A stretch of DNA of 34,176 bases, taken from positions 1 to 34,176 of the forward strand of contig JAJRWB010000073.1 of the NCBI GenBank assembly GCA_024276995.1, given 5' to 3'. The position numbers were made by a program, and so were the translations under genes. The DNA is from Candidatus Eiseniibacteriota bacterium. GTDB taxonomy: Bacteria > Orphanbacterota > Orphanbacteria > Orphanbacterales > Orphanbacteraceae. Below the pieces are notes generated by a model. That model was not told where the DNA came from and ran no database searches. It saw nothing but the letters and a program-made list of their open reading frames with translations. Positions 1-22,583 of the stretch are shown here, one piece after another. The number at the start of each line of letters is the position of its first letter. The stretch's first letter is position 1.

Positions 1-72
1 GAGAATCTCCTCGAGCAGGGGGCCGATGTTCTCCTTCTCGTCGTACGTCGGGATGATCACCACCGTCTTCAG
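1..72 (-). CDS. Polyprenol-phosphate glycosyltransferase (GT2), N-terminal fragment
   Basis: Only the first 24 codons lie in the window; the gene runs off the left edge. The peptide reads MKTVVIIPTYDEKENI and onward, the classic opening of GT2 enzymes of the dolichol/polyprenol-phosphate mannose synthase type (VVIPTYNExENI). These make polyprenyl-P-hexose at the cytoplasmic face of the membrane as donor for GT-C enzymes. The best start is CTG at 72-70: it gives the family-typical MKT start, sits 7 nt after a GGGAGGA Shine-Dalgarno, and overlaps the TGA of the upstream GT9 gene as CTGA, implying translational coupling. GTG at 63 is the alternative start. The family call rests on one short motif, so other GT2 glycosyltransferases are possible. 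Confidence 0.75.
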   Translation of the reverse strand, partial: MKTVVIIPTYDEKENIGPLLEEIL

Positions 73-1187
73 CTCGACTTCCTCCCGAGACGAACGACGG
101 CGTCGTGAACCTCTTCGGCAAGGATCGCCCGGTCGCAACCCGGCTCGATGTCGCACTCTTTCCGATAGCACGGATGACACTCGACGGCGGGAACGATCTT
201 CTCGCCGAGGCCATAGAGTTCGATTTCCGCGCTCGCCGTCGAGCCGAAGATCACCGCCACCTTCCGCTTCAGTGCCAGCGCGAGATGCATGCCGAGGGTA
301 TCGCCCGTGACGAGGGTATCGCACCGGCCTATGAGGGCGGCGAAACGGCGCACCGACCGAGTGGCCCCCGGATCGAGAAGGGGAAAATCGGCCGCGCGGC
401 GCAGCGTTTCCACCCGGCGGCGGTCCCGCTCCCCGCCGAGGAGGACCACCGCCGTGCCGTCCGACGCGGCGAGGAGGCGCGCCAGCTCAAGGAACCGCTC
501 ATCCACCCATCCTTTACGGGCGAACTGTTCTCCCGCCCCGAGGTTGAGCCCCACCAAGCGCGTCCCGGGCGGGACCGCTGCGCCGCCGAGCCGCTCGCGG
601 GCGTAGCGGCGTGCATCGTCGCCCGGATCGAAGTCGTACGGCTCGCCCTCGAACTCGAGGCCGCACATCTCGAAGACGACCTCCTGGTAGGTCTTCCGGT
701 TCACGCGAAACTTCAGGTCGTCGTCGAGGCCGAGGCGAAGGGCGTACTCCCCTTCGGGCGAGGCGACGACGAGACCGCCGCGACGGTCGGCGAGGAAGCC
801 GTAACGCCTCTTCGCTCGTAGCCGGGAGGCGAGACCGGTGGCGGCGCCCTCCTTGTCGAGACAGATGACGACGTCGAAATGCTCCGGCTCGAAAGTGAGC
901 AGCGCGTCGAGGTCGAGAGGGAACAGCCTGTCGATGCCCGCCGTCCCGGAGAGCATGTCGAGCGCCCCCGGCCGGGTGACCCAGGTGATCGTGCACGGCC
1001 CGTATCGCCGGCGCAGCCCCGCGAGGAGCGGCGTCGTTCGAAGCACATCGCCGAGCGCCGCCAGCTTGATCAGTAAGATCCGCCTGCCGGCCGGTTCGAA
1101 AAGATCGCAACCTTCACAGAGCCTCCCGTGGATGCACGGCTTGTCCCCGCGAAAGAAGCGGCAGTCGGTTCGCGTTTCGAAACTCAC
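69..1187 (-). CDS. Glycosyltransferase family 9 (heptosyltransferase-like), Cys-rich
   Basis: A 372-aa GT-B fold enzyme of the ADP-heptose:LPS heptosyltransferase superfamily, expected to add a sugar to a lipid-linked envelope glycan at the inner face of the membrane. The N-terminal Rossmann start is RRILLIKLAALGDVLRTTPLL. The donor-site signature near residues 290-320 (DTLVTGDTLGMHLALAL, then VAVIFGST) matches the GT9 DxGxxHlAaAL...FG pattern. The GTG start at 1187 overlaps the TGA of the upstream gene (GTGA) and follows a GGAGGGAGGG Shine-Dalgarno; an in-frame ATG at 1304 would overlap that gene by 120 nt and is unlikely. Oddities are an N-terminal cysteine set (C9, C18, C24, C27) and a second near the C-terminus (C337, C340, C345, C351), suggesting bound metal. 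The sugar and acceptor cannot be told from sequence. Confidence 0.88.
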   Translation of the reverse strand: MSFETRTDCRFFRGDKPCIHGRLCEGCDLFEPAGRRILLIKLAALGDVLRTTPLLAGLRRRYGPCTITWVTRPGALDMLSGTAGIDRLFPLDLDALLTFEPEHFDVVICLDKEGAATGLASRLRAKRRYGFLADRRGGLVVASPEGEYALRLGLDDDLKFRVNRKTYQEVVFEMCGLEFEGEPYDFDPGDDARRYARERLGGAAVPPGTRLVGLNLGAGEQFARKGWVDERFLELARLLAASDGTAVVLLGGERDRRRVETLRRAADFPLLDPGATRSVRRFAALIGRCDTLVTGDTLGMHLALALKRKVAVIFGSTASAEIELYGLGEKIVPAVECHPCYRKECDIEPGCDRAILAEEVHDAVVRLGRKSS

Positions 1188-2686
1188 ACTCCCTCCCTCC
1201 TGCGGAAATAGACGAGGTACATCTTTCCGATCGGCGCACTCTCCCCTTTGTACTCCCGGTTGAACCGCTCGCTTTCGAGAAGTTCCCTCAGCCCCGGGTT
1301 CCACGGCGTCTTGAACTGTCCGGTGGTGAACACCGGCTCGGGCAGCAAGAATGTGTAGTGGAAGATGTACGTCGGCTTTCGTGAGAGTACGTACTCCATG
1401 TCGTTCTTCTCATGCCCGGCGATCCCCTTCCCCATGTCGGGCATCTTCCGGTGACCGATCGTCCTGTCGGTGATGCCGAGCATGTCCACCGTGGGAATAC
1501 GCCCGTAATACGGAATCACCCCCGCGGTGGCGACCGCCATCGTCTCCCCCTCCTTCGCATGTTCGCCGATCCACCGGCCGATCACCTTCCAGTGCAGTTC
1601 GATCCGCTGCCGGTCTTGAACGAGGAAGCGATACGAAGCGCCGCCGAACGACGAGTAGGCCGGCAGCGCGAAGAGGAGGGCGAAGGCGGCGAGCCGCACC
1701 GTGCCGATGGCGCCCGTCGGCCAGGGGAAGAGTTTCGCCAGCCCCGAAAGGGAAAGGAGGGTGAAGAGGGGGAGCAGCGGGACGAGGAAGCGATAATACG
1801 GGAGGCCGTCGCCGCCGACGAGCACGACGTACGCGGTGAGCACCGCCGCCACGGCGAGGAACGTCCGCTCCCACGGCTTCACCCGCACCAGGAAGACGAG
1901 GGGGAGCGGCGCGAGGATCGTCCAGCCGCCGAACGGCCCCGCCCAGGCGAGAAGATACTTCACGCCCCGGATCGCCGCGTAGACGCCTCCTCCCGACTTG
2001 GCATAGTACGTGTTGGGCAGTGCGTCGCCGTAGTAGGCGATCCGCCACGCTTCGTAGGGAACGAGAACGGCGAGGAAGAGGGCGAGAGCGGGCAGCAGGT
2101 CGCGCAGCGCCGCCGAGCGGTGCGCCGCGAGCCGCTCCCCCACGACCACCGCGAAGACAAGTGCCCCTTCCGGCCGGGTAAGCGTCGCGAGGGCGAGAAG
2201 GAGCGCCGAGCGGAGAAATGGTCGTTTCCCCCTCTCCCCCGCCGCGGCCGCTACGCCGGCGAAGACGAGGAGCGAAAAGAGCGATGTCTCGAGACCGGCG
2301 CCGCTCCACAGCGCCAACGCCCCGCTCGCAGCCAGAGGCAGGGGGAGGAGGAGGGCGAGCGGCCTCTCCCCGAGGCGTGAGCGGCCGTAACTCCACACCG
2401 CGAAGATCAACACGACGCCCGCCGCAATGCCCGCGATCTTCATGAACCACTCGACGTCGAGCCCGAGCCGGATCGGAACGGCGGCGAACACCGTCCACAG
2501 GAAGTTCGTGTACCCCTCCACCCGTTCGGTCGGGTTGTAGACGAGTCCCGCCCCTTCCACCCAGTTTCTCGCATAGCGGAACGAGATGAACGCGTCGTCC
2601 ACGGTGTAGCGGAAGGAGAGGGCATGCGCGACGAAGACGGCGGCACAGACCGCCGGAAAGACCTTCTCGATGCGGTTTTCGCTCAT
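1184..2686 (-). CDS. GT-C membrane glycosyltransferase, AftB/LA3751-like
   Basis: A 500-aa polytopic membrane protein with about ten hydrophobic helices. The first extracytoplasmic loop begins at D30-D31 with DDAFISFRYARNWVEG, followed by LVYNPTERVEGYTNFLW. This combination is characteristic of GT-C enzymes related to the mycobacterial arabinofuranosyltransferase AftB and the LA3751-type family, in which the acidic pair is the catalytic or metal-binding site. Such enzymes use polyprenyl-phosphate sugars at the periplasmic face. The soluble C-terminal part (from about residue 390) carries a conserved-looking segment around VDMLGITDRTIGHRKM. The start at 2686 has GGGGAG 7 nt upstream. The gene leads a tightly coupled unit with the GT9 and the polyprenol-P glycosyltransferase, so these probably build or modify one envelope glycan. 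The transferred sugar is unknown. Confidence 0.82.
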   Translation of the reverse strand: MSENRIEKVFPAVCAAVFVAHALSFRYTVDDAFISFRYARNWVEGAGLVYNPTERVEGYTNFLWTVFAAVPIRLGLDVEWFMKIAGIAAGVVLIFAVWSYGRSRLGERPLALLLPLPLAASGALALWSGAGLETSLFSLLVFAGVAAAAGERGKRPFLRSALLLALATLTRPEGALVFAVVVGERLAAHRSAALRDLLPALALFLAVLVPYEAWRIAYYGDALPNTYYAKSGGGVYAAIRGVKYLLAWAGPFGGWTILAPLPLVFLVRVKPWERTFLAVAAVLTAYVVLVGGDGLPYYRFLVPLLPLFTLLSLSGLAKLFPWPTGAIGTVRLAAFALLFALPAYSSFGGASYRFLVQDRQRIELHWKVIGRWIGEHAKEGETMAVATAGVIPYYGRIPTVDMLGITDRTIGHRKMPDMGKGIAGHEKNDMEYVLSRKPTYIFHYTFLLPEPVFTTGQFKTPWNPGLRELLESERFNREYKGESAPIGKMYLVYFRRREGV

Positions 2687-2782
2687 AATCGCTCCCCTGC
2701 GCCCTTCCCGACGGCCTGTTCGGCCCCCCGGGCGCCTCCCTGCGACCCTATCACAGAATACGCCCGTCGCGGCCACTTCGCC

Positions 2783-2826
2783 TTGCGGTCGCATCGTGTT
2801 AAATGGTACAATTACTTTGATATATC
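2783..2826 (+). promoter_or_regulatory. Promoter region of the diguanylate cyclase gene
   Basis: An extended -10 TGGTACAAT lies at 2804-2812 with a weak -35 TTGCGG at 2783-2788 (18-nt spacer). A second extended -10-like stretch, TGaTATATC, lies at 2818-2826, only 5 nt before ATG 2832. The first would give a leader of about 12 nt and the second a leaderless mRNA. The 145-nt gap (2687-2831) is shared with the divergent GT-C gene, for which no clear promoter is visible. Confidence 0.5.
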
Positions 2827-2831
2827 GCATC

Positions 2832-4172
2832 ATGGGGCAGACCATGCATAGAGAAGAATCGGACTACAGGCGACTGCTCACCGAAGTCCTCCCTGTCGAC
2901 AGCCTGGACGAACCGCTCCGTAAGCTGGTGGAGGAGAGCATCGGGAAAGGGGACGACGTCACCCTCTGGAGGACCACCCTCCTGGTGATGGACGCTCTTT
3001 GTTCCCGGGGACTCTTCCTGAAGGGCGTCGGGGGAGGCACTGCGGGGGCGAGCACGTTTTACCGCCGCGGGAAACTGCTCACCGTAACCGTGAAGCCCCC
3101 TCCGGGGTCGGCGGCGGAATACGAGTTCACCGCCGAGCCCGCGCTCTTCCCCGGTATCGCCCCTTCCGGCGGCGACGCACCGCTCGATTCGCTCTTCTGC
3201 GGCATCGCCACGCGGGCGGCGGGGGACGAGCTGGCGGATTCTCTCGGCGAGATCACCGGCTATCTTCGTACCGTTCTTTCGCCGCTGGCGGTCCACCTCT
3301 TCCTCTTCGAAGGGGACGACACGACGCCTGTCGGCACCGCCGCCGCCACCCGCTTCGTCGACACCCTGCGCCCCTCCTTCGAAAAGGGCGGGGACGCCGT
3401 GTATATCCCCGACCTCGCGCGCGAACCGGACGTCTTCCGGCGGATCGGAGCGAAGGACGCCTCGTCGGCGGTTCTCCTCCCCCTGCGGACCGGCGACGTT
3501 CTGTACGGCGCCATGGAAGTGCTCCATCGCGAAGTCGGTCCTTTCGGTCAAAAGGAACTCGGTCTCCTTTCCCTTCTCGCCCTTCTCGCGGCGGGGAGGA
3601 TCCGAAACGCCGGGCGGCTCGAGAAACTGATCTATATCGACGTGCTCACCGGGGTGTTCACTCGGCGGTTCTTCGAGGAACAGGTGGTGCGCGAGCTGGA
3701 GCGGGCGAACCGGGAGAGTGTTCCCCTCGCCTTCGTCATGGTCGACCTCGACGATTTCAAGGGGATCAACGACCGCCACGGTCACGCCACCGGCGATCGG
3801 GTGCTCGGTGCGGTCGGCAGGCTCCTCAACGAAAACGTTCGGAAAATCGATCTCGTCACCCGCTTCGGCGGAGAGGAGTTCGCCATTCTCCTGCCGGGCG
3901 CCTCGCGCGACCAGGCCGCGATGATCTGCGAAAGGCTCCGGTCGCTCGTCGAGAAGCTCATCCTCCTGGACGACAAGGGAGGAAAGCTCGGCCTTACGGC
4001 GTCGATCGGCATCGCCCTTTACCCGGAACACACCGGGGCGACGGACGATCTTGCCGCCGTGCGCGACGATCTCCTGCGAAAAGCGGACGGGGCGCTCTAC
4101 GGCGCCAAGGGGGAAGGGAAGAACCGGGTTCTCTTCTGGGACGCGGCGGGCGAAGGGGGGAATCGATCGTAG
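2832..4172 (+). CDS. GAF-GGDEF diguanylate cyclase
   Basis: A 446-aa soluble cytoplasmic protein that should make cyclic di-GMP from two GTP. The C-terminal GGDEF domain (about residues 270-440) opens with DVLTGVFTRRFFEE, has the metal-binding segment MVDLDDFKGINDRHGHATGD, and an intact GGEEF active site at 346-350. The product-inhibition I-site RxxD is present (RKID, five residues before GGEEF), so feedback inhibition is expected. Residues about 140-260 look like a GAF sensor. The first ~130 residues are a domain I do not recognise. There are no transmembrane segments, so the signal is intracellular. The start is uncertain: ATG 2832 lies right behind the promoter without a Shine-Dalgarno, while ATG 2844 has a weak GGGG upstream. 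The gene stands alone between divergent and convergent glycosyltransferase genes. Confidence 0.9.
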   Translation: MGQTMHREESDYRRLLTEVLPVDSLDEPLRKLVEESIGKGDDVTLWRTTLLVMDALCSRGLFLKGVGGGTAGASTFYRRGKLLTVTVKPPPGSAAEYEFTAEPALFPGIAPSGGDAPLDSLFCGIATRAAGDELADSLGEITGYLRTVLSPLAVHLFLFEGDDTTPVGTAAATRFVDTLRPSFEKGGDAVYIPDLAREPDVFRRIGAKDASSAVLLPLRTGDVLYGAMEVLHREVGPFGQKELGLLSLLALLAAGRIRNAGRLEKLIYIDVLTGVFTRRFFEEQVVRELERANRESVPLAFVMVDLDDFKGINDRHGHATGDRVLGAVGRLLNENVRKIDLVTRFGGEEFAILLPGASRDQAAMICERLRSLVEKLILLDDKGGKLGLTASIGIALYPEHTGATDDLAAVRDDLLRKADGALYGAKGEGKNRVLFWDAAGEGGNRS

Positions 4173-4196: not shown

Positions 4197-6800
4197 CTAC
4201 CCCTCCCCACCGAGGAGGCGCCTCGCTTCCGTGGCGTGAGGCGATTCGGGATCGGCTTCGAGGGCGGAACGGAGGAGGGCGAGCCCTTCGTCGCTCTTCC
4301 CGGCGCACACGAGGGCGAGACCGAGCCGGTAGCGCGCCCCCTCCCCCCGGTAACCGAGCCGCATGGCGTCGCGCAGCGACTCGACCGCCTCGTCGCACCG
4401 GCCGAGACGGTAGAGCACCCACCCATGCGTATCGGCGATGTACGGGTCGGAGGGGGCCAGGTCCGCGGCACGGCGCGCCAAGTCGAGCGCACGGGGAAGG
4501 TTGCGGTTCCTTTCGGCGAGGGACCACGCATAACTGTTTAGCCGCGAAGGATCGTTTCGGTCGAACCCGACGAGGATCTCGAAGAGCGAGTCGGCCTCCT
4601 CGTCGCGCCCCTGTCCGGCGCGCAGCAGCGCGAGCGCCTCGAGAGCGTCGCCGTCCGCGGGGGGATTCCCGGTGAGAGCGGCGTAGATGTCGGCGGCTTC
4701 ACCGGTCTCCCCACCCGCTTCGAGCGCCGCGGCGATCGAGAATTCCCCCGCGCGCCGTTCGCCCGGCGCGAGTCGGTCGGCCTTCGCGAAGAGGATCCGC
4801 GCCTCGCCATAGCGCCCCTCGTCCACGCGGCTGCGCGCCAGTTCCACCAGCGGCGCCGTCTCGTACGGCCTCTCCTCGGCGGCGGCGCGCAGCATTCTCT
4901 CCCCCTCGGCGCGATCGCCCCCGGCGGTAAGGAGACGCCCCAGGGCGAAGAGGGCGTCGTACCGGAGCCTCGGATCATGGGAGATCACCCACCGGAAATG
5001 CTCCTTCGCCTCGTCTACCTTCCCCTCCTCGAGAGAGAGGTAGGCGAGATTGAGCCGGGGGAGACCGTCACGGGCGATCGCCGCCGCCTTCGTGTAGAGC
5101 CGCCTCGCCTCGTCGTTCCTTCCCGCGCGGTACCAGGCGAGGCCGACATTGTTCAACACCACCGACAGACCGTCCCCCATCTCCTCGGTCTTCCGCAGGA
5201 GGGTGTACGCATCCTCTTCCTTCCCCTCGGCGAGACGAAGGCGGCTCTCCTGGAGCGGGTACGTGGCGGCGAGAATCCTCTCGAGATAGCCGCCGTCGCG
5301 CGGCACCTTTCGCGCCTCGCCGACATGGTACTCCTTCCAGATTCCCGACCGCCGCGCGCCGACCGCCGCGCCGATACGGACATACCGGTAGAGGAGACCG
5401 TACGGAACGAGTTCGAAGGTGGCGAGGCCGAGTTCATCCCTGTCGCTCACGGCGTACACCGCCCCACCCGAGCGGAGGCGCGCGCGAAGACGTTCCCGCT
5501 TCGCCCTCGTCCTTCCCCCCGCGGTGGGGAGGTCTTCGAAAAGGGGACCGTCGGGCATCAGGTCGAGTACGGCGTTCCACACGGTGATATCCGGTCGCCG
5601 CCGTTCGGCGTGAAGGGCGTAGAGCAGGCCGAAGGTGTCGCTGTCCCCTTCCGCCACGAGAGCGGCGCCTTCGTCGAGAGTCATAAGTAGATTGTTTATA
5701 TATTCATCCATCACTCCACGATCATGAAGATCGCAACTGTGTGCGTTCTGCGCCGCCTGCACGACGATAAGAACGGCGAAGAGGGGCGCCGCCGTTTTCG
5801 TGGGGATGAAACGCGTGGAAAAGGCGATCGCCGTCGCGAGAAGCATGTAGACGGGAAGGAAATAGGCGGCGGGGTCGTTGATCTGGAAGTGGAGCGTGTA
5901 CCCGAGACTGAGGAGCGTACCGCCCGCCACGAGAATCAGGAGCGGCCGGTGCGACCGGCGCATCGCCACCACTCCCGCGGGGACGAGAAGGTAGACCCCC
6001 CACGTCAGTTTCGTGCCGAGCCCGCCGAGCCACGAAAGGAACCGGCCGACGGTATTCCCCTCTCCCAGATAGCCCCAGTAGCCGTATCCCGTCACGTGGG
6101 CGACGAACCGGTCGAGCGTCGAGGGGTCGCCCCAATTCCAGAGAGGATCGAGCGAGGCGCGCACCGGGAGGTAGAGATAGGGCGTCAGCCCCAGGAGAAA
6201 GAAGAGCGCCGACGACACCGCCGTCCAGCGCGATACCCCCGCGGCGAACACCGCGCGAAGCGCCAGCACCGGGAGGAGAAAGACGAGGGAGAGGTGATTC
6301 GTCAGCGCGAGTCCGGCGAGAAAGGAGAAGAGGAACACTCTTCTCGTCTCTCCCCGTCGCTCGGGGGACACCGCGAGGAGGAGCGCGAGGAAGAGGAGAG
6401 ACAGGGTGTACACCTCCGCCGAGGCCGACTCGCGCCAGAGCGCGCTCGACGTCGCGAGCGCCGCCGCCGCGAACGCCGCCCCCACCGCACTCGCACCTTC
6501 CCGCCGGAGGAACCCGCCCAGGAGCGCCGCCGCCGCCGCGCCGCAAAGCGCGCTGAAAAGATTCATGCGAAAAGCGATCGACCCGAGGGGAACGAGGGAG
6601 AAAAGCCTTCCGGTCAGGGTGTAGAGAGGGTAGCCGGACGGGTGGGGCACGCCGAGACGATACGCCGCCGTGGTCAGCTCGGGGCCGTCCCCCGCCTGGA
6701 TACCGTGGGAGAGGGTGAGGACGTAGAACGTCGCGATCGGCGCGAGGAGAAGGAGGGCGAAACGCGCCGGATAACGCCTCCGATCAATCGAGATAGCCAA
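4197..6800 (-). CDS. DUF2723 GT-C membrane glycosyltransferase with long TPR tail
   Basis: An 867-aa protein. The N-terminal half is a polytopic DUF2723 (GT-C superfamily) domain with the family signature at residues 37-60: GDGPELTTAAYRLGVPHPSG followed by YPLY. The invariant acid in this loop (D38/E41) is the likely catalytic base for a polyprenyl-P-sugar donor. From about residue 505 to the end there are around nine TPR units rich in A..Y...G and L/A-x-P helices, probably facing the periplasm. The start ATG 6800 lies 17 nt inside the end of the upstream phosphodiesterase-like gene, so translation is coupled. It is the last gene of a three-gene operon with two AP-superfamily lipoproteins. 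A GT-C body plus C-terminal TPRs resembles eukaryotic TMTC O-mannosyltransferases in layout. A protein acceptor is inference; glycolipid modification is the alternative. Confidence 0.85.
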   Translation of the reverse strand: MAISIDRRRYPARFALLLLAPIATFYVLTLSHGIQAGDGPELTTAAYRLGVPHPSGYPLYTLTGRLFSLVPLGSIAFRMNLFSALCGAAAAALLGGFLRREGASAVGAAFAAAALATSSALWRESASAEVYTLSLLFLALLLAVSPERRGETRRVFLFSFLAGLALTNHLSLVFLLPVLALRAVFAAGVSRWTAVSSALFFLLGLTPYLYLPVRASLDPLWNWGDPSTLDRFVAHVTGYGYWGYLGEGNTVGRFLSWLGGLGTKLTWGVYLLVPAGVVAMRRSHRPLLILVAGGTLLSLGYTLHFQINDPAAYFLPVYMLLATAIAFSTRFIPTKTAAPLFAVLIVVQAAQNAHSCDLHDRGVMDEYINNLLMTLDEGAALVAEGDSDTFGLLYALHAERRRPDITVWNAVLDLMPDGPLFEDLPTAGGRTRAKRERLRARLRSGGAVYAVSDRDELGLATFELVPYGLLYRYVRIGAAVGARRSGIWKEYHVGEARKVPRDGGYLERILAATYPLQESRLRLAEGKEEDAYTLLRKTEEMGDGLSVVLNNVGLAWYRAGRNDEARRLYTKAAAIARDGLPRLNLAYLSLEEGKVDEAKEHFRWVISHDPRLRYDALFALGRLLTAGGDRAEGERMLRAAAEERPYETAPLVELARSRVDEGRYGEARILFAKADRLAPGERRAGEFSIAAALEAGGETGEAADIYAALTGNPPADGDALEALALLRAGQGRDEEADSLFEILVGFDRNDPSRLNSYAWSLAERNRNLPRALDLARRAADLAPSDPYIADTHGWVLYRLGRCDEAVESLRDAMRLGYRGEGARYRLGLALVCAGKSDEGLALLRSALEADPESPHATEARRLLGGEG

Positions 6801-8148
6801 GGCTCTTCAGCATCTCCCTCATCTGGTCGTCCATGGGGGACTCGACCGGCGCCGGCGCCGGCGATCCCTTCCCTCCCGATTCGTACGAATCGATCCTCTT
6901 CACCGGATGGGCCTCGAGGAACTCTTTTCGGAACAGGTCGCGCCTCACCGCACCGTCCATATCCTTCCCCACGGGGAGGCCGAAGGCGGCGAGAATGAGA
7001 GGCGTCAACTGCTCCGGCGCCACGGCGCCGTCCGCCTTTCCCTTGCGGAACGGCCCGCCGGCGGCGAGAAGTATACCGTGCCTCGAATGCCAGAAGGGCA
7101 TTTCCTCGTACTTGCCGTCGCCTACATGGAGTCTCGTTCCAGGCGGCCAGTCCCGGAATCCGTGGTCGGACACCACCACGATGGCGTCTTTTTCCAGGTC
7201 GAGACGGTCGAGAAAAAGGCCGATCAGCCTATCGGCGAGACGGTACGTCTGGGCCACCATCGGGCCGATCCGTTCGAGCACCCCGGGGGGAAGAGGCTTG
7301 TCAAGCGGTGGAAGATCGCCCAGAGGCGCGTCATGGTACCGGTTCTCGTACAGGCGGTGGATCATCCACAGCCGGTGTTCGAAAAAGTCGATCGACTCCA
7401 TATATTGGGTGAAAAAATGGGGCGACCTTGCGTCGTAAAGAGCCATCCCCGCGTTGAGATAGGCGAAATCCTTGTCCAGGTAGTGGCGAAGCGCCGGGTC
7501 GAGGCGGTCGATCTCGGGAAAATGTTCACTCGCGAAGTATCGACCCGCGTTCACCGCCGGCCGCACGACTTCGTCGAGTCGATCGGGGTATGTCCTGCGC
7601 CCCACCGTGTCCCACTCCGCGCCGGGGGTCCACTCCTTCTCGAAAGGGGCCGACGGGGGCCACGTGTAGTTGGTGAGAAGAAAGCCGTTCACCTTCTCGG
7701 CTGGCCACGTCACCCAGTGTCCCACCACGCCGACGTCGATGCCGGACGAGCCGAGAATGTCCCACAGCGTCCTTCTCCGGCGGAGGTTCGACGTCACCGG
7801 CACACGGCGCGTCGAATCGGCCGACGGCAACGTAAAGCTCGTGACGCCGTGCTTCTCCGGCCGGCAGCCGGTGAAAAGGGTCGTCCAGATCACCGGCGAG
7901 AAGACCGGCTCGTCGACGTCGGTGACGGTTGAAATCCCCTCCTCGAAGAGACGATCGAAATTCGGCAGTTCACCCCGAGTTCGCAGCACGTCGATCACAC
8001 CCGGATCGGCGCCGTCGAGGCCGATGAGGACGAGCCTCTCGGGCGGGGAGTCGCCCCCTCCCGAACAAGCCGCCCCGGCCAGGACGACGGCGAGCGTCGC
8101 CAGGGTCGCGGCGAACCGTACCGACTTCGTGTGAAAGGGGATTCTCAT
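6784..8148 (-). CDS. AP-superfamily phosphodiesterase-like lipoprotein
   Basis: A 454-aa alkaline-phosphatase-superfamily (type I phosphodiesterase/nucleotide pyrophosphatase) protein. It starts with an export signal with Cys28 after LAVVLAGAA; the lipobox is imperfect, but a lipoprotein is likely. The metal-site start is LIGLDGADPGVID (D45). The segment SPVIWTTLFTG carries the expected nucleophile T89. The later metal ligands are in VVSDHGF and WHSRHGI. It probably hydrolyses or transfers a phospho-group in the periplasm; the substrate is unknown. The start ATG 8148 overlaps the TGA of the upstream sulfatase-like gene (ATGA). A longer in-frame ORF back to 8415 lies inside that gene and is rejected. 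The protein ends in MLKSLGYLD, a tail also found in related proteins here. Confidence 0.85.
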   Translation of the reverse strand: MRIPFHTKSVRFAATLATLAVVLAGAACSGGGDSPPERLVLIGLDGADPGVIDVLRTRGELPNFDRLFEEGISTVTDVDEPVFSPVIWTTLFTGCRPEKHGVTSFTLPSADSTRRVPVTSNLRRRRTLWDILGSSGIDVGVVGHWVTWPAEKVNGFLLTNYTWPPSAPFEKEWTPGAEWDTVGRRTYPDRLDEVVRPAVNAGRYFASEHFPEIDRLDPALRHYLDKDFAYLNAGMALYDARSPHFFTQYMESIDFFEHRLWMIHRLYENRYHDAPLGDLPPLDKPLPPGVLERIGPMVAQTYRLADRLIGLFLDRLDLEKDAIVVVSDHGFRDWPPGTRLHVGDGKYEEMPFWHSRHGILLAAGGPFRKGKADGAVAPEQLTPLILAAFGLPVGKDMDGAVRRDLFRKEFLEAHPVKRIDSYESGGKGSPAPAPVESPMDDQMREMLKSLGYLD

Positions 8149-9515
8149 CGGACGTACTGCAGCGCTTCCAGTTTCCGGCGGACATCGTCGTCGGTGGTGA
8201 GGTCGCCCATCTGGAAGCCGGGGTCGGTCTCCCGCATCCAGTCGGTCAAGATCGCCTCGAGCCTCTTCACTTCCCCCGGATGGTCGCCGTAGACGTTCTT
8301 CGTCTCCCCCGGATCGGCGTCGAGATCGTAGAGAGCCTTCTGCCCGGTGATCGGAAAGACGACGAACTTCCATCGTTCGTCGCGCACCGACTTCGCCTTG
8401 TATCGGTTCTGCCATTCATCGCTCACTTCAAGATCCCACGGCTTGCTCGCCTCGCTTACCGAAGAGCGCGCCTCGATGCCCCCGTCGAGCACTCCGAGAA
8501 GGCTCTTTCCCTCGAACCGGGAAGGGGGACGGATCCCCGCCGCATCGAGGAGCGTCGGCGCGATGTCGAGAAGACGTACCGGCTCGCGCACCACGAGAGG
8601 TTTGCGGATCAGTTTCGGCGAGTTGAGCACCAGGGGGACGCGGATCTCGTTGTCCCAGAGGAAATGGCCGTGGTCGTAATAATAGTTGTGCTCACCGAGG
8701 GATTCGCCGTGGTCGGCGGTGACGGCGATCAGAACGCTGTTCCTCCTCGAGGCGGGAAGCGCATCGAGCACCTCTCGCAGCTCCCGGTCGGCGAAGGCGA
8801 CCTCTCCGTCGTGGGCGGCCGCCATGTACGCCAGGTCGGCCGGTGTCTGCGCTCGCCTGTGGAACCGGAGGGCGAAGAGATCATCGAGGCTCTCCGGATC
8901 GAAGTCGCCCTTCGGAACCCGCCGGAACGAGAGATACGGTTCGGGGGGATTGTACGGCCAGTGGGAATCGAAGAAATGAACCCATAGGAAGAACGGTTCG
9001 TCGCCGACGCCGCGGAGCCATTCCACCGCCCGCGCGGCCACCTTGTCCGCCTTCCTTTCCACTTCACCGCCGAAGGGGGTGTCATCGAGATCCTCGTCGT
9101 AGAGATCGAACCCCCGGGAGAGGCCGAAACGGCTGTGAAGGGGATACGCGCCGATCACAGCGGCCGTCCGGAAACCGTGATTCCGAAAGATCTGCGCCAC
9201 CGTGACCACCCGGGCGGGCACTTCGAAGCCGTTGCGAGGCACGCCGCTCGACCGGGGATGGAGCGAACTGAGAATCGTGGTGTGGGAGGCGAGGGTGGTC
9301 GGCACCTGGGAGATGCACGCCTCGAACTGGATGCCGTCGAGGGCGAGGCGATCGACGCCGGGCGTCACCGCCTCGACATGCCCGTAACAACCGAACCGGT
9401 CGGCTCGGGTGGTATCGAAGGTGAACAGGATCACCCCGGTCACCCCGTCCCGGGTCGGCCCGCGGCCGCACGATAGGAGGAGGAGCAAAGCGAGGAACGG
9501 GACTGTTTTTTTCAT
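8145..9515 (-). CDS. Sulfatase-fold lipoprotein lacking the formylglycine motif
   Basis: A 456-aa PF00884-type (sulfatase/phosphoglycerol transferase fold) protein with a good lipoprotein signal: MKK, then a leucine-rich core, then Cys16. Metal-binding elements are present: FTFDTTRAD (D34), TADHGESLGEH and DHGHFLWDNEIRVPL. At the catalytic position of true sulfatases (C/S-x-P-x-R) it has T74 and H78 (T-x-x-x-H), so formylglycine chemistry is excluded. A Thr nucleophile, as in phosphatases and phosphoglycerol/phosphoethanolamine transferases, is more likely. ATG 9515 follows GGGAG by about 10 nt. It heads the operon with the phosphodiesterase-like and DUF2723-TPR genes, suggesting one envelope glycan or protein-modifying pathway. 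Automatic annotation would say sulfatase, but I would not assign sulfate-ester hydrolysis. Confidence 0.85.
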   Translation of the reverse strand: MKKTVPFLALLLLLSCGRGPTRDGVTGVILFTFDTTRADRFGCYGHVEAVTPGVDRLALDGIQFEACISQVPTTLASHTTILSSLHPRSSGVPRNGFEVPARVVTVAQIFRNHGFRTAAVIGAYPLHSRFGLSRGFDLYDEDLDDTPFGGEVERKADKVAARAVEWLRGVGDEPFFLWVHFFDSHWPYNPPEPYLSFRRVPKGDFDPESLDDLFALRFHRRAQTPADLAYMAAAHDGEVAFADRELREVLDALPASRRNSVLIAVTADHGESLGEHNYYYDHGHFLWDNEIRVPLVLNSPKLIRKPLVVREPVRLLDIAPTLLDAAGIRPPSRFEGKSLLGVLDGGIEARSSVSEASKPWDLEVSDEWQNRYKAKSVRDERWKFVVFPITGQKALYDLDADPGETKNVYGDHPGEVKRLEAILTDWMRETDPGFQMGDLTTDDDVRRKLEALQYVR

Positions 9516-9550
9516 TCGTACCGGTCTCCCTTCGCGCGTGTCCGTGCGGC

Positions 9551-9559
9551 ATTGTAGCA
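9551..9559 (-). promoter_or_regulatory. Extended -10 promoter of the 9515-4197 operon
   Basis: On the minus strand the sequence reads TGcTACAAT (TG at 9559-9558, hexamer 9556-9551), 35 nt before ATG 9515. No good -35 is visible 17 nt upstream, which fits an extended -10 promoter. Expected transcription start is near 9544, giving a leader of about 30 nt that includes the GGGAG ribosome site. Confidence 0.55.
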
Positions 9560-9590
9560 CATCGGCGCACCGCCCCACCCGGTCGATCCA

Positions 9591-9620
9591 TTGACGGATG
9601 GCGACCGGTGTGAGTATGTT
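9591..9620 (+). promoter_or_regulatory. Promoter of the secreted metalloprotease-like gene
   Basis: TTGACG at 9591-9596 and TATGTT at 9615-9620 with an 18-nt spacer, followed by a leader of about 48 nt with GGAGGT at 9663-9668, six nt before ATG 9675. It runs back to back with the divergent extended -10 at 9551-9559 in a 159-nt intergenic region. Confidence 0.55.
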
Positions 9621-9674
9621 ACCGGTAGATCGGTCCACCGCCCGCTCCCTCTCTTCGCTCGCGGAGGTAGGTGA

Positions 9675-12122
9675 ATGTCTCCGTCACGCTCCCACCGGGA
9701 AACCGCCCCCTCCCATCGTCCTGCCGCCGCGTCGCGCTCCGATCTCCTCGCCGCGTTCCTCGCCGTCCTCATCACCACGTCGATCCCCCTTCACGCGGAG
9801 GCCGCCGGAAACGCCGTCGCCGGGATCCCGCCGACCGACGCGCTGATCGTCCTTGACGACATCGACATCGACGAAGTCTGGGCGTTCATCGACGAGTGGA
9901 CCGCCAACGGCGCCTGGCTTCCCCACGTCTATCCCCCGAACCTGATCATCGGCTCCGTTCCGCCGTCGCTGGAGGAAGCGCTCCACTCCGACCGGCGCGT
10001 CCTCTCGCTGAATCGCCGTCCCTACGTGCCGCCCGCGTCCGATAAGAACGCCCGCCGCCACGCCCTGGTGATCGCCTCGTGGAACATGGAAGGAGGTGAA
10101 GCGGCGGAAAAGAACGGGGAGGAAGCGGTTTTCCGGGAAGGGGGAGAACTGTCGTGCCGCGTCGAGACGGTCGACGGGAGAGCCGCGGAGCTTTTCGCCC
10201 GGAAGGCGGGGCGGATCGAGGAGAAGCAGTACGGCCGGGCGAAGGGGGCCGATTTCTTCCAGACCTCCGAGTGGGTCATCGGAAGGACGGTGGTGGGGGT
10301 CGTTCTTCCGAGCACGGAAGGGGCGACCCACACGAAAGAGGAGGTCGCCGGCGTCTATTCCCAGGTGAGGGGCGCCTTCACCTATCTCGCTTCGCGTGCC
10401 GGGGCGTACCCGGGCGCCCAGTTTCTCTACGACCTCCACGACTCGGTTTACACATCGAGAAATCTGCAGTACTCTCCCCCGCACTACAGGGAAAGCGAGT
10501 GGACCGGCGAGGTGATGAAGAATCTCGGCGGATACGACCTGTATGTGAAAGGTGTTCCCCAAGCGCCGGTGTACGAGTACCTCGACACGCTCCGGACGCG
10601 CTTTTCCACCGAGTGGGCTGTCTGCCTCTTCCTGCCGAGGGCGAAGTTCTTTCAGGGCGCCGGCTATACCGCTTACGCCTATCTCGGCGGGCCGTTTCTC
10701 GTCGCCCCCTCGGCCGGCGGCGGCAAGGTGGGGCCGTCGGGAACGATCCTCCTCTCCCATCTGATCATCCACGAAGCATCGCATCTCTACTTCGCCCTCG
10801 ACGAGTACGCCAAGGGGGGATCGGCCACGCCCTGCCGCGCCACGTCGGGCTACATGGGGGTGTTCAACCGGAACAGCCTCCGCCGGGACTTCCTGTGCGA
10901 CCCGGAAAGCCACCAGCCGTGCGCCATGCGCGAGGCGAGCGCGAACCTCTGCTCGTACTCCCTCGCCATGATGGCGGCGGCCGACTCGGACACCAACGGC
11001 GTGCCCGATGTGCTCGACACGACGCCGTGGGTGAACATCGACTCGACCCTCGGCGACACGATCACCACCGTCTCCCCCGAGATCTCCGGGTGGATCTCGG
11101 TGGTCCCCGCGCCGAACCTGGCGAACCGGTCCGGCACGGGCGCCGACGGCCGCCGGGAGAAAGAGGCGCTCGGGCGGCGAAACAACATCACCTTCAACTA
11201 CATCACCCACGTGATCTACAGGATCGACGACCAATCGTGGCAGTTCGGCGACCCCGACGGCGGGTGGCGGTACGACTCGTCGCTCGTCCATTTCCGTTTC
11301 ATTCCCGACTCCCTTTCGGGCGGGAATCACGTCATCCGGATCCGGGGGGTGAACAGCGTGGGGAACGAATCGACGGGCGGATTCGAGAAGAAATTCGATC
11401 TTTTCGTGAAGGCGGTGGCGCTTCGCGATTTCGAAATCGAAGCCGACTACGGAGGAAAGGTGCGGCTTTCGTTCAATATCTTCGGAGGAGCTTTCGGATC
11501 GGAGGCGACGCTCTACAGGACCGCGCCTTCACCCGACACGGGGCTCCCCGAGACCGACGTGGTTCGCGTCCTCACGCTGAGCGATGACACCGCCTACGAG
11601 GTGATCGACGAACAGGGACGGCCGGGGGATACGCTCACATACGAAATCGTCGTGCGCGGCCTCGGCCTCGAGTGGTCGTGGGAGAAGCGCTTCGTCAAGC
11701 AGTCGCCCATCGAGCGGAGCACCTATCTCTCGATCGCCACGCCGAACCCGTTCCGTGACCGCACGGTGATCTCCTTCCGCGTCCCGAGGGGGCCGAGGAT
11801 CGTCCGTCCGGGCGGAGGGGGCAAGCCGGGGGGAACGACGCACAACGGCGACTACCGGCCCGACGCCGGTTATGCTCCGCCGGCGGGAAAGACGTCCGTC
11901 CGCTACCGGCAGATCGTCGCCCGTCTCGATATCTATAATATCGCGGGGCGAAGGGTGCGCCACTACCCGCCCACATACTGGGACGAAGGGTTCGTCCCCG
12001 ACCCGGTGATCTGGGACGGCAGAGACGACAGGGGAAACGATGTCCCCCAGGGCGTCTATTTCATCCATTTCAGCGCGGGCGACGATGTGAGGGAGACGCG
12101 AAAGATCGTCCTCATCCGATAG
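9675..12122 (+). CDS. Secreted HExxH metalloprotease-like protein with FlgD-like C-terminal domain
   Basis: An 815-aa exported protein with a basic N-region and hydrophobic core (LLAAFLAVLITTSIPLHAEA) as signal peptide. The zinc-site candidate is H366-E-A-S-H370, followed by LYFALDEY. Spacing matches the HExxHxxGxxD-type site of M64 metallopeptidases, with D376 as possible third ligand and Phe replacing the usual Gly. Residues 437-448 (DSDTNGVPDVLD) look like a thrombospondin-type-3 calcium loop. An Ig-like stretch (about 510-590) precedes a FlgD-like/Por-type domain from about 682. That domain holds TPNPFRDRTVISF, LDIYNIAGRRV, WDGRDDRGNDVPQGVYF and ends KIVLIR, the usual terminal domain of surface or secreted proteins in this type of bacterium. 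It is interrupted by a roughly 40-residue Gly/Pro-rich insert (708-748). The start has a strong GGAGGT six nt upstream. Peptidase activity is inferred from the motif only. Confidence 0.8.
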   Translation: MSPSRSHRETAPSHRPAAASRSDLLAAFLAVLITTSIPLHAEAAGNAVAGIPPTDALIVLDDIDIDEVWAFIDEWTANGAWLPHVYPPNLIIGSVPPSLEEALHSDRRVLSLNRRPYVPPASDKNARRHALVIASWNMEGGEAAEKNGEEAVFREGGELSCRVETVDGRAAELFARKAGRIEEKQYGRAKGADFFQTSEWVIGRTVVGVVLPSTEGATHTKEEVAGVYSQVRGAFTYLASRAGAYPGAQFLYDLHDSVYTSRNLQYSPPHYRESEWTGEVMKNLGGYDLYVKGVPQAPVYEYLDTLRTRFSTEWAVCLFLPRAKFFQGAGYTAYAYLGGPFLVAPSAGGGKVGPSGTILLSHLIIHEASHLYFALDEYAKGGSATPCRATSGYMGVFNRNSLRRDFLCDPESHQPCAMREASANLCSYSLAMMAAADSDTNGVPDVLDTTPWVNIDSTLGDTITTVSPEISGWISVVPAPNLANRSGTGADGRREKEALGRRNNITFNYITHVIYRIDDQSWQFGDPDGGWRYDSSLVHFRFIPDSLSGGNHVIRIRGVNSVGNESTGGFEKKFDLFVKAVALRDFEIEADYGGKVRLSFNIFGGAFGSEATLYRTAPSPDTGLPETDVVRVLTLSDDTAYEVIDEQGRPGDTLTYEIVVRGLGLEWSWEKRFVKQSPIERSTYLSIATPNPFRDRTVISFRVPRGPRIVRPGGGGKPGGTTHNGDYRPDAGYAPPAGKTSVRYRQIVARLDIYNIAGRRVRHYPPTYWDEGFVPDPVIWDGRDDRGNDVPQGVYFIHFSAGDDVRETRKIVLIR

Positions 12123-12162
12123 TGCCGCCCAGCCTCACGATTCCCCGGTGCGGGCGGGAAGG

Positions 12163-13161
12163 TCAGCGCCTGAGGCGAAGCGCGAACACGAGAAGCGCCG
12201 CGAGCACCAGGAGACCACTCAATAGGACGCCGGACGGGATCTTCTTCCCTCTTGTCCCGTCGGCGGCGGGCGCCGCCGGCGCTTCGTCCGGCCTCTCCTT
12301 GAGCCACTCGGAGTAGTCGACCATGCCGTTCGCCCGATCTTCGCCGTCCCACTTGTCGAAGATCTTGTCGATGTTGGCCGGGTAGCCGAGCCGGTTCATC
12401 ACCGACGTGGTGGCGATCCCCCAGTAGTTGTAGCGGGCATTGATCTCGTTGCGCGAACTGTTGAACAGGATGTACCCGGTGTGGGAGAGAAAGATGTTTC
12501 CCTTCCCCGGGCTTCCCCCCACCACGGGGTATCGCCTCTTCCCGACAATCAGGATCGACGCGGTCATCGTGCGGTTGAACAGGTTGTTGTAGATTTCCGC
12601 CGACGAGCCGCGCAGCGTGATGGCGTACTGCCTCGTCCTGTCGAAGCTGTTCTTCTCGATCACGAGAGGCGAATTGAGAATCTTCATGCCGTTGAAACAG
12701 CAGTCGAACACGTTTCCCCGCACCGTTCCCTTGGTGGAGTCGGCGAGCACCCCCGATCCGCCGAGGAAGCGGCACCCCTCCAGGTCGAGGAGTGTCGAAC
12801 CGGTTACGAGGGCGTAGGTCGTGCCCGGAGTGTTCCTGTCGAAGGTGATCCCCTCGATATGCACAGGCCGGCCGGCGGCGTACACCGTGAGGATCGCCAT
12901 CGTGTCGACCGTTCCCCGGATCGTCGTCGATTCGGCGCCGTCGCTCCCGATGAGCGAGAAACCGATTTCCTTCCGGACGAGAGGTTCGAAATCGTACTCT
13001 CCCGGGCCGACTCTCACGGTATCCCCGTCGGCCGCAGACCGGATCGCTTCGCGAAGAGCCTTTCCATCCCCGGTGACATCCCACGTCCGCGCCGCCCCGG
13101 GAGAGGGAACGGCAAGAAGAGTCGCGAACAGCGACAGGGCGATCAGTTTCGAGCGGATCAT
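12163..13161 (-). CDS. Exported right-handed beta-helix protein with C-terminal membrane anchor
   Basis: A 332-aa protein. Signal peptide MIRSKLIALSLFATLLAVPS with likely cleavage near A24. The body has repeated short strands typical of parallel beta-helix (NosD/pectate-lyase-like) proteins: an opening ALREAIRSAADGDTVRVGPG, then units such as TTIRGTVDTMAILTVYA, VHIEGITFDRNT, TVRGNVFDCC, LVIEKNSFDRT and AEIYNNLFNRT. Such folds bind or cleave polysaccharides, but no catalytic triad is obvious, so an enzymatic role is not assigned. Residues 308-332 form one hydrophobic helix ending in RLRR after a Pro/Ala/charged linker: a membrane anchor or sorting signal. ATG 13161 has GGGGAGG about 6 nt upstream; the in-frame ATG at 13206 is rejected. 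It follows the GT-C/TPR gene by 45 nt and probably shares its transcript. Confidence 0.78.
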   Translation of the reverse strand: MIRSKLIALSLFATLLAVPSPGAARTWDVTGDGKALREAIRSAADGDTVRVGPGEYDFEPLVRKEIGFSLIGSDGAESTTIRGTVDTMAILTVYAAGRPVHIEGITFDRNTPGTTYALVTGSTLLDLEGCRFLGGSGVLADSTKGTVRGNVFDCCFNGMKILNSPLVIEKNSFDRTRQYAITLRGSSAEIYNNLFNRTMTASILIVGKRRYPVVGGSPGKGNIFLSHTGYILFNSSRNEINARYNYWGIATTSVMNRLGYPANIDKIFDKWDGEDRANGMVDYSEWLKERPDEAPAAPAADGTRGKKIPSGVLLSGLLVLAALLVFALRLRR

Positions 13162-13206
13162 CGTATCCTCCCCGGGCCCGGCCGGCCCGATGCGAGTGAC
13201 TCTCAT

Positions 13207-15243
13207 CTAACGGCTATCGGCCTTCTGCTTTAACTGCTCAAGCGCCTCGCGCGGTTCCATCCGGTCCGGCATCGCGCGGCACGCCTCCTCGAGCACCTCC
13301 CTCGCCTCGTCCGGTCGTCCCGATCGCTCGAGGTATTCGGCGAGCCTGAGGGCGGGCACCGGCTCCGCGGGCGCGAGTCGGACCCCGAGACGGTACTCCT
13401 TCTCCGCCCGGGCGCTCTGCCCTGTCTTCTCCAGACAAAGGGCGAGGTTCGTATGAACCCTCCCGTCCACGGCGCCCGTGCGCACGAATGCCCTGTACTC
13501 CTCGATCGCCTCCTCGTAGCGCCCCTCGTTGTGGAGGAGCATGGCGAGGTTCGCATGGAGACCGGGGTGACGCCTGTCGGCGGCGATCCCCTTCCGGTAC
13601 GCGGCGATCGCCTCCTCCACCCTCCCCATCCGACCGTATGTAAGACCGAGATTATTGTACGCCTCCGCCTTGTCCGGGTCGAGACGGAGCGCCTCCCGGA
13701 ACGCCGTGAGCGCGCCTTCGAATTTTCCCGACTCTCTCAAGGCGACACCGAGGTCGTGATAGGCGTCGCTCGACGAGGGATCGTGAGCAATCGCCTCGCG
13801 GAACCGCCCGGCCGCCTCCTCGTTCCTCCCCTGGGCGAGGAGCGACACCCCCTCTCCTTCGTAGCCGAGGGCGAGATTCACCGGGGGGATGATTCCGAAG
13901 TCGATATTCAGCAGCGCCGTGAGACCGACTACCGCCGCCAGGAGCGCCATTCCCCGCGCCGGGGCGCGCCGGAGCATCTGTGCGACCTTGACGATCCCCG
14001 CCGCCGCGAAAAGAAGAATCACCGGGAGAAGGGGCATCCGGAATCGGGAGCACACGAAGAAGAGCACGAGCGTGGCGGAATAGGCGAAGAAGTAGAAGAG
14101 GAGGAGCCTTCGCCCCCTTCCCCGCCCGGCGAGCACCATGCCGAGGAGGGCGAGCGGGGAGAGAACGCCGTACGCCACCGGAAGATTTCGAAAAACCCTC
14201 GAATATCGACCCGAAAAGGAAAGAATCTGGTTATTCGACAGCTCTTCCCCGCGAAGGAGGAGGTACGCCTTGCGGGCGAAAAGGCGCGTCGCCTCCGCCG
14301 GGTTCTCTTGAATGAAGGCGATGCCCCGGGCGAACCAGTAGTTCGAAATCTCGCGGTACCGGAGTTTCCTGCCGAGTTTCGTCTGGGGAATGCGGATGCC
14401 GTCCTCGTACCCCCCCCACCAGTCCTTCCGCATTCCGGGCGCGGTGGCGCTCCAGCCGTCGGCGCCCGGATGGTTCCCGAGGTAGAAGTTGAGTCCCCCC
14501 TGCCACGAGATGAGTACGACCTCTCCCCCCTCCCGGGCGTTCCGCCACGTCACCGGCCCGATGACGGCGAGCGATGCGGCCGCCACCAGGAGCGTCGGCA
14601 CCGCCACGTCGCGCAAGAACCGGCTCCTTTTCGTACCGAGAAAGAGCCATATAGGGATCAGAGGCGCGAAAAGCAGGATGTTCGGCCTGGCGAGCGCCGC
14701 CAGACCTAGAACGACGCCCGCAGCCCCCCACCACATCGCGCGCCGCCGCCGGTCCGCTTCGAGAAGGACGGCGAGGAGGAGGGTGTCGAGAAAGAGCGCC
14801 AGCGGGGTGATCAGCAGTTCTCCGTCGAAATAGACCGCCAGGGGGTAAAGCGTGCCGAGAAGGACGGCGAGAAGGGCCGTACCGCCGCCGAACAGCCGTC
14901 TCCCCATGTGGAACACGAGCCCGAGGGTGAGCACGCCGAAAAGCGCCTGGGCGATCCGGGCGACGTGGCGTTCTCCCCCACCGAGCCGGTAGGCGGCCGC
15001 CAGGAACCAGGGATAGAGGGGGGCACGGAAATAGGGGGCCCCATCGGTGATCGGTCTGCCTTCGAGGATCGATTTCGCCCAGGAATCATGGTATGCGGCG
15101 TCCATTACCGGGTGGTCGAAAACGGGCGAGGCCGCCATGTCGGAAAGATGGACCATCCGGAGGGCGAATGCGGAAAGGAGGAGGAGAACCAGGAAAAGCC
15201 GGATCGCACCGCTCTTGCCGAAACCGGAGGGGAACAACGTCAT
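13207..15243 (-). CDS. PMT-type (GT39/ArnT-like) GT-C glycosyltransferase with TPR tail
   Basis: A 678-aa protein. Residues 1-450 form a polytopic PMT_2-like GT-C domain: the first periplasmic loop has VMDAAYHDSWAKSILEG then YFRAPLYPWFLAAAYRLGG, the usual D...Y...A...G...R.PLYP pattern with an acidic catalytic residue. It would transfer a sugar from a polyprenyl-phosphate donor at the periplasmic face. From about residue 455 there are about six regular TPR units (for example AYNNLGLTYGRMGRVEEAIAAY), ideal for recognising protein partners. The start is uncertain: ATG 15243 has GGGAG only two nt upstream, while TTG 15237 has better spacing. A six-codon upstream ORF (ATG 15260) stops in ATGA overlap with ATG 15243. 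The beta-helix gene follows by 45 nt. The layout matches TMTC proteins; the acceptor is unknown. Confidence 0.85.
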   Translation of the reverse strand: MTLFPSGFGKSGAIRLFLVLLLLSAFALRMVHLSDMAASPVFDHPVMDAAYHDSWAKSILEGRPITDGAPYFRAPLYPWFLAAAYRLGGGERHVARIAQALFGVLTLGLVFHMGRRLFGGGTALLAVLLGTLYPLAVYFDGELLITPLALFLDTLLLAVLLEADRRRRAMWWGAAGVVLGLAALARPNILLFAPLIPIWLFLGTKRSRFLRDVAVPTLLVAAASLAVIGPVTWRNAREGGEVVLISWQGGLNFYLGNHPGADGWSATAPGMRKDWWGGYEDGIRIPQTKLGRKLRYREISNYWFARGIAFIQENPAEATRLFARKAYLLLRGEELSNNQILSFSGRYSRVFRNLPVAYGVLSPLALLGMVLAGRGRGRRLLLFYFFAYSATLVLFFVCSRFRMPLLPVILLFAAAGIVKVAQMLRRAPARGMALLAAVVGLTALLNIDFGIIPPVNLALGYEGEGVSLLAQGRNEEAAGRFREAIAHDPSSSDAYHDLGVALRESGKFEGALTAFREALRLDPDKAEAYNNLGLTYGRMGRVEEAIAAYRKGIAADRRHPGLHANLAMLLHNEGRYEEAIEEYRAFVRTGAVDGRVHTNLALCLEKTGQSARAEKEYRLGVRLAPAEPVPALRLAEYLERSGRPDEAREVLEEACRAMPDRMEPREALEQLKQKADSR

Positions 15244-15466: not shown

Positions 15467-15623
15467 CGTCCCGGAGAGTATCTCCGGGGGTATTGAAGGT
15501 AGCTTCCCGTAGAGGGCGTCCCTGCTGGACCCAGTTATGGGGGTGCCCGACGGTAACTGTTTCATGGACAGACCGAAAGACCTTTCCCGAGGTTCCAAGG
15601 CTGTTCAAGGAGGTTTCGTTCAC
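15467..15623 (+). promoter_or_regulatory. Long structured 5' leader
   Basis: The transcribed leader can fold into a string of hairpins. A perfect 8-bp stem CCCGGAGA/TCTCCGGG with a GTA loop (15470-15488) lies right at the predicted 5' end. It is followed by GAAG/CTTC (15495-15506), GTCC/GGAC flanked by GGG/CCC (15514-15533), and CAGTTA/TAACTG (15532-15559), which competes slightly with the previous stem. The Shine-Dalgarno AAGGAGG (15607-15613) is outside these stems. I do not recognise a known riboswitch class. The 5' terminal stem is the type that stabilises abundant mRNAs. Confidence 0.45.
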
Positions 15624-22544: not shown

Positions 22545-22583
22545 GAACCGCCGGTCCCGCCAAACTCTTTCCCCGGAATCCCC

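Follow-up and report, generated by a model that had tools for sequence, protein, structure and literature searches.

A conserved chromosomal block with DPY19-like, TMEM260-like and PMT_2 GT-C/TPR proteins in a Candidatus Eiseniibacteriota bacterium: a putative protein mannosylation pathway

The window analysed here is a whole contig (C59) of 34,176 bases from a genome of 3.76 Mb in 81 contigs. It is part of a conserved chromosomal block that encodes outward-facing GT-C/TPR enzymes and a Dpm1-like enzyme, and we give an even chance to the reading that the Dpm1-like enzyme and the TMEM260-like and DPY19-like members make up a pathway for the mannosylation of exported polypeptides. The reading starts from observed homologies, kept catalytic residues, predicted folds and topology, synteny and TPRs. 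DPY19 is a tryptophan C-mannosyltransferase and TMEM260 a protein O-mannosyltransferase, both of them animal enzymes. A preliminary description had placed three GT-C genes with C-terminal TPRs at 4197-6800, 13207-15243 and 30556-32907; Pfam recovers both parts in each of the three at these positions, all on the minus strand. The three GT-C bodies are of different families, with TPR arrays, predicted to be periplasmic, at their ends. As to the identity of the bodies, the PMT_2-like assignment of 13207-15243 holds, the protein at 4197-6800 is TMEM260-like, and that at 30556-32907, described as STT3-like, is DPY19-like instead.

The gene at 30556..32907 (minus strand) encodes a DPY19-like (GT98) GT-C protein of 783 aa with a luminal dome and C-terminal TPRs, as found by Pfam, profile and Foldseek searches. 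Its match to Dpy19 (PF10034) scores 60.2 bits against a cut-off of 27.2 (E 1.5e-16). The AlphaFold2 model (mean pLDDT 90.9, pTM 0.88) has 13 membrane helices and a dome; the luminal-dome-like domain, which aligns to that of C. elegans DPY-19 (CeDPY19), comprises residues 480-621 (31045..31470, minus strand; also in the AlphaFold2 model), and the TPR array residues about 654-777 (30577..30948, minus strand; Pfam and AlphaFold2). When this model was searched with Foldseek, CeDPY19 structures took ranks 1-3 (E 7e-16, TM-score 0.72-0.74 by target length), and oligosaccharyltransferases and STT3 came after them. Similarly, a profile of 25 bacterial DPY19-like sequences found CeDPY19 (7zlg) first, with E 2.4e-28 over most of the length, and eukaryotic STT3 next, with 1.6e-20. 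Among the 22 full-length members of the family, Pfam detects Dpy19 in 19 (E 0.01), a TPR family in 16 and STT3 in none. In addition, there is no Pfam STT3 match in the window's DPY19-like protein (P0003), in the members of family A4 or in the source genome, and the oligosaccharyltransferase WWD motif is absent from all 25 aligned bacterial sequences. In a maximum-likelihood tree, CeDPY19 and the bacterial sequences are split from STT3/PglB with a support of 100/100, and a topology that joins CeDPY19 to eukaryotic-type STT3s is rejected (p-AU 0.031); the test of CeDPY19 inside versus beside the bacterial family gave p-AU 0.25. CeDPY19, taken from a printed alignment, is the single animal sequence in this tree and sits on a long branch; the tree therefore supports the grouping without proving it. 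On the combined evidence of Pfam, the missing WWD, the tree and the profile, the STT3-like label was dropped; an identity of the oligosaccharyltransferase/STT3 type (GT66) finds no support in the absent WWDYG motif and the lack of an STT3 match.

The catalytic residues were compared using the numbering and roles given in the CeDPY19 structure paper (PMC10154233), with counts over the 25 aligned bacterial sequences. Glu49 (codon 32761..32763, minus strand) corresponds to the catalytic Glu71 of CeDPY19, a position with 22 Glu, two Asp and one gap; the E71D variant of CeDPY19 retains most activity, and one human paralogue has Asp (PMC10154233). Arg159 (32431..32433, minus strand) corresponds to Arg211 of the Rx6LRE motif in EL2, where Arg is found in 22 of 25, the three exceptions being a TPR-less subfamily, and Arg417 (31657..31659, minus strand) to Arg471 in EL6, which is Arg throughout (25/25). 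Glu220 of the LRE motif is likewise kept in 22 of 25, and the EL2 motif is mostly RE or KE, in the style of DPY19, not DNE. The TPR-less subfamily (L039, L040 and L042), which has lost Arg211 and Glu220, perhaps has another function.

In the acceptor pocket, Tyr578 of the dome, which stacks on Trp(0) of the acceptor in CeDPY19 (PMC10154233), is F529 here and aromatic in 21 of 25 sequences, and the position of Phe401 is F359 (aromatic in 18 of 25); the position of Tyr395 is L354, mostly Leu or Met in the family, with an invariant W355 adjoining it. In CeDPY19, Trp(+3) of the WxxW sequon is held by Lys473 and Leu474 (PMC10154233); these positions are not conserved, being Ser419 and Ser420 here and variable, mostly Val, in the family. 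Since Leu474 also varies among the human DPY19 paralogues (PMC10154233), loss of the +3 pocket bears on the sequon and not on family membership. Judged by the kept residues, the machinery that takes mannose from polyprenyl phosphate looks intact. The catalytic residues are kept but the +3 pocket is not, suggesting that the sequon differs or that the acceptor is something else.

The DPY19-like family is patchily distributed. With an alignment of the phylum's copies as query, it was found in 33 of 386 genomes, belonging to many families across the bacteria, and relatives at 48-49% identity occur in metagenome assemblies labelled Candidatus Eisenbacteria and Gemmatimonadetes. No operon of the gene common to all lineages was found. 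Its neighbours are polA/secretin and coaE-rho in one group of lineages, a TMEM260-like gene, hslU and an MglA-like GTPase gene in another group, and mreBCD in this phylum; in several lineages it lies amid housekeeping genes and not in polysaccharide clusters. At six loci (L061, L062, L064, L065, L066 and L069) the gene stands between secretin/polA and coaE-rho-prfA-prmC-murA, with type IV pilus-like genes near secretin/polA in some of them, and pilus proteins are possible acceptors there. In two other genomes (L067 and L068), TMEM260-like, hslU, MglA-like GTPase and DPY19-like genes adjoin. Across the 386 genomes, TMEM260-like genes accompany the DPY19-like gene in 24 of 33 genomes versus 156 of the 353 others (Fisher p 0.0018; p 0.017 without the bacterium's own family), a statistic that ignores kinship and is therefore not relied on. 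That bacteria of several lineages make TPR-armed DPY19 C-mannosyltransferases, which would modify exported proteins at a sequon other than WxxW and whose family would be a possible ancestor of eukaryotic DPY19, is a tentative proposal that we consider rather unlikely as it stands.

The TMEM260-like (GT117) GT-C protein of 867 aa, encoded at 4197..6800 (minus strand), matches PF11028 with 93.4 bits against a cut-off of 24.2 (Pfam, E 1.8e-26). Residues 10-407, a GT-C body of about 400 residues, align with human TMEM260 (PDB 9rql) at E 1.8e-40. The C-terminal TPR array, residues 543-860 (4221..5174, minus strand), is matched by several Pfam TPR families and, by analogy with the topology of the family, would lie on the luminal side. 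Each of the seven genomes that represent this small phylum in the collection sampled has an orthologue. A lipoprotein gene of the alkaline-phosphatase superfamily (Phosphodiest PF01663 by Pfam; 6784..8154, minus strand, with the start placed from the lipobox) overlaps with its end the start of the TMEM260-like gene, and the two stay together in the relatives G002, G003 and G004. Directly upstream of, and overlapping, the phosphodiesterase gene is that of a sulfatase-family lipoprotein (8145..9638, minus strand; PF00884, E 2e-37). The sulfatase, phosphodiesterase and TMEM260-like genes are probably one operon.

The third protein, of 678 aa with six TPRs (13207..15243, minus strand), is a generic, ordinary member of the bacterial PMT_2/TPR proteins. 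Its Pfam match to the GT39/GT83-like PMT_2 family (PF13231, E 3.3e-17) scores 63.6 bits against a cut-off of 26.1, its AlphaFold2 model (mean pLDDT 93.5) has 11 membrane helices, and its TPR array, seen by Pfam and in the model, comprises residues 459-668 (13240..13869, minus strand). The orthologue in G002 is 59% identical. The Foldseek matches listed for the protein covered its TPRs only, and a sequence search of the PDB with its GT-C body gave no match. PMT_2 genes are hugely expanded in the source genome (39 loci in 3.76 Mb, about half of them TPR-tailed), and TPR tails were counted on 15 of the 28 PMT_2 proteins scanned.

In the AlphaFold2 models of the PMT_2 and DPY19-like proteins, helix counts place the TPR regions on the outer face of the membrane, C-terminal to the last helix. 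This agrees with the layout of GT-C body plus periplasmic TPRs put forward in the preliminary description, and no cytoplasm-facing array was predicted in the two models. A role in acceptor recruitment has been proposed for the TPRs of TMTC and TMEM260 (PMC11292533). The comparison with a TMTC-like set stands for the GT-C plus luminal TPR layout, but kinship with TMTC (GT105) does not: Pfam matched none of the three proteins to a TMTC family, and a TMTC identity was rejected for them. About 8 kb past the left end of the window, on contig C25, lies a GT-C/TPR gene that is TMTC-like by eye (L164:4784-6766); it gave no Pfam glycosyltransferase match and no PDB match. Repeated fusion had also been read as selection for a protein-binding module on sugar transferases. 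With TPR tails on so many envelope enzymes of the genome, including 15 of 28 PMT_2 proteins and a sulfatase, that argument is weak, and the GT-C/TPR fusion itself is ordinary in the source genome. On an extrapolated figure of about 27 GT-C/TPR proteins per 3.76 Mb, 0.25 are expected per 34 kb; the chance of at least three is about 0.002 for one window and about 0.2 across all windows of the genome, so the clustering of three in 34 kb is by itself unremarkable. A further GT-C protein (1184..2845, minus strand) is weakly AftB-like (GT89; NCBIfam NF041481, E 5e-10, far under the cut-off), and no TPR was found in it. Another sulfatase-family lipoprotein gene, at 16487-18397 (plus strand), has an in-frame TAA at 17582-17584, followed by a frame encoding TPRs; the region is a single open frame in G002, and the part of it covered in G004 is open too. 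Breakage of the gene or an assembly error may explain the copy in the window.

The gene order around these enzymes is conserved. In G002 it runs from the DPY19-like gene through radC-like, mreB, mreC, pbp2, rodA, lgt, Wzi-like and MltD-like genes, then through genes for the sulfatase/TPR protein, a Cys-rich protein, the PMT_2/TPR protein, a beta-helix protein and a FlgD_ig protein, and finally through sulfatase, phosphodiesterase, TMEM260-like, GGDEF and AftB-like genes. Parts of the block, the TMEM260-like gene among them, are kept in G003 and G004; searches of these two genomes did not find the DPY19-like gene. The long open reading frame at 20284-23307 (minus strand) is misleading, since over its first half it runs in the wrong frame through aroE-like and ComF/phosphoribosyltransferase-like genes, and the C-terminal part alone, a Wzi-like protein, is real. 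The exported Cys-rich protein (15537-16361, plus strand) is kept in relatives, with two copies in G004, and is a possible acceptor.

A gene for a Dpm1-like polyprenol-phosphate mannose synthase, truncated where the contig ends, has its 5' end in the first bases of the window (1..72, minus strand). The start of the window and the end of contig C25 share an overlap of 141 identical bases, and the complete gene (239 aa; L164:14211-14930) lies on C25. Searched against the PDB, its product matches a dolichol-P-mannose synthase best (5mlz, E 8e-25); the polyprenol-phosphate glycosyltransferase start proposed earlier is thus real. On the window contigs the gene adjoins that of a GT9-type, heptosyltransferase-like glycosyltransferase (69..1304, minus strand; assigned by sequence inspection and syntenic in G004), and G004 has a short match to the start of the Dpm1-like gene at the syntenic place, just after the GT9 gene. 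The suggestion of a nearby Dpm1-type donor enzyme is therefore borne out, in that the gene belongs to the same conserved block, and its position at the window edge makes it a plausible donor enzyme beside the proposed pathway.

Putative protein mannosylation is a plausible function of this set. The Dpm1-like enzyme would make polyprenyl-phosphate-mannose on the cytoplasmic side of the membrane, and the lipid would then be flipped. In the periplasm, the TMEM260-like and DPY19-like enzymes would move single mannoses from the lipid onto exported polypeptides, while the TPR arm may capture or position the polypeptide during its emergence. In the DPY19-like protein, Glu49, Arg159 and Arg417 would act as Glu71, Arg211 and Arg471 do in C. 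elegans DPY-19. That the sugar is mannose and the acceptor a protein is inferred, as are the residue that would be modified and the part given to the TPRs. Acceptor signals were sought in 62 sampled exported proteins of G002, which has the DPY19-like gene, in comparison with G004, which lacks it. In this small sample, drawn with a crude signal-peptide rule, neither WxxW (9 versus 10.6 expected) nor WxxC (1 versus 4.3 expected) was enriched in G002. Meanwhile, three TIG/IPT domains occur in the source genome and none was found in four of the seven phylum genomes (G001, G002, G005 and G006); over all seven genomes, the presence of TIG domains showed no correspondence with TMEM260-like genes.

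Lipids are the substrates of many GT-C enzymes whose bodies are similar, which counts against a polypeptide acceptor. It is quite possible, if not what we expect, that the acceptors of the GT-C/TPR enzymes are lipid-linked or envelope glycans, as for ArnT and the mycobacterial arabinosyltransferases, with the TPRs holding other proteins of an envelope-assembly complex. The expansion of PMT_2 to 39 loci would fit this, as would the TPRs on a sulfatase, the lost +3 pocket of DPY19, and the neighbours, namely GT9, the AftB-like GT-C protein, the Wzi-like protein, and the phosphodiesterase and sulfatase lipoproteins. However, for two of the three bodies the nearest enzymes have polypeptides as their known acceptors, and 21 of 25 sequences retain an aromatic residue at the dome position that stacks on Trp(0).

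Two other explanations concern the DPY19-like protein. It might be a divergent oligosaccharyltransferase, moving a preassembled glycan onto asparagine, for it shares ancestry with STT3, which comes second in both profile and fold searches, and it has 13 membrane helices; with WWD in none of 25 sequences, EL2 mostly RE or KE and not DNE, no Pfam STT3 match and a tree separation of 100/100, we regard this as very unlikely. The family might also have turned into a non-catalytic binding or transport protein, as the TPR-less L039, L040 and L042 without Arg211 and Glu220 could suggest; but the other 22 sequences, from very divergent lineages, keep Arg211, Glu220, Arg471 and, where the residue is present, Glu or Asp at Glu71, which makes that explanation very unlikely too.

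Published work confines C-mannosylation to metazoa and alveolata (PMC6801728), and a 2026 review names no bacterial enzyme for it in the part where bacteria are mentioned (PMC12990085). In the open-access literature we found no report of a prokaryotic DPY19, no paper on DUF2723, as the body at 4197-6800 had been called, and no activity data for any family member. The Pfam Dpy19 model already recognises bacterial proteins, so some of them may be listed there. Within the scope of that literature, the predicted bacterial, TPR-armed branch of the known DPY19 family appears to be new. With its catalytic residues kept, such a divergent bacterial family would be a place to look for prokaryotic C-mannosylation; it may also be a source of the eukaryotic enzymes, and would offer bacterial models for study. 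The TMEM260 relative encoded in this block and the adjacent Dpm1-like gene make a bacterial mannoprotein pathway directly testable.

Among known systems, DPY19 (GT98; C. elegans DPY-19, PDB 7zlg-7zlj) is the best match of the protein at 30556-32907 by profile and fold, with which it shares 13 helices, the luminal dome, the catalytic Glu, the EL2 and EL6 Arg and, mostly, an aromatic dome residue. In contrast to DPY19, the bacterial protein has a C-terminal TPR array, and Lys473/Leu474 of the WxxW +3 pocket are not kept. STT3, PglB and AglB (GT66) are alike in fold, in the 13 helices and in the EL2 and EL6 arginines, whereas the bacterial DPY19-like proteins lack WWD and DNE and form a separate clade. 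TMTC1-4 (GT105) have the same layout of GT-C plus luminal TPRs, but no TMTC-type body is present in the three proteins. The PMT_2 protein resembles other bacterial PMT_2 proteins with TPR tails, with no special feature seen. TMEM260 (GT117; 9rql) shares with the protein at 4197-6800 the GT-C body, the GDxxEL motif after TM1 and the C-terminal TPRs; it differs in that the protein here is bacterial and has several paralogues per genome, in a phylum where IPT domains, the acceptors of TMEM260, are rare or not found.
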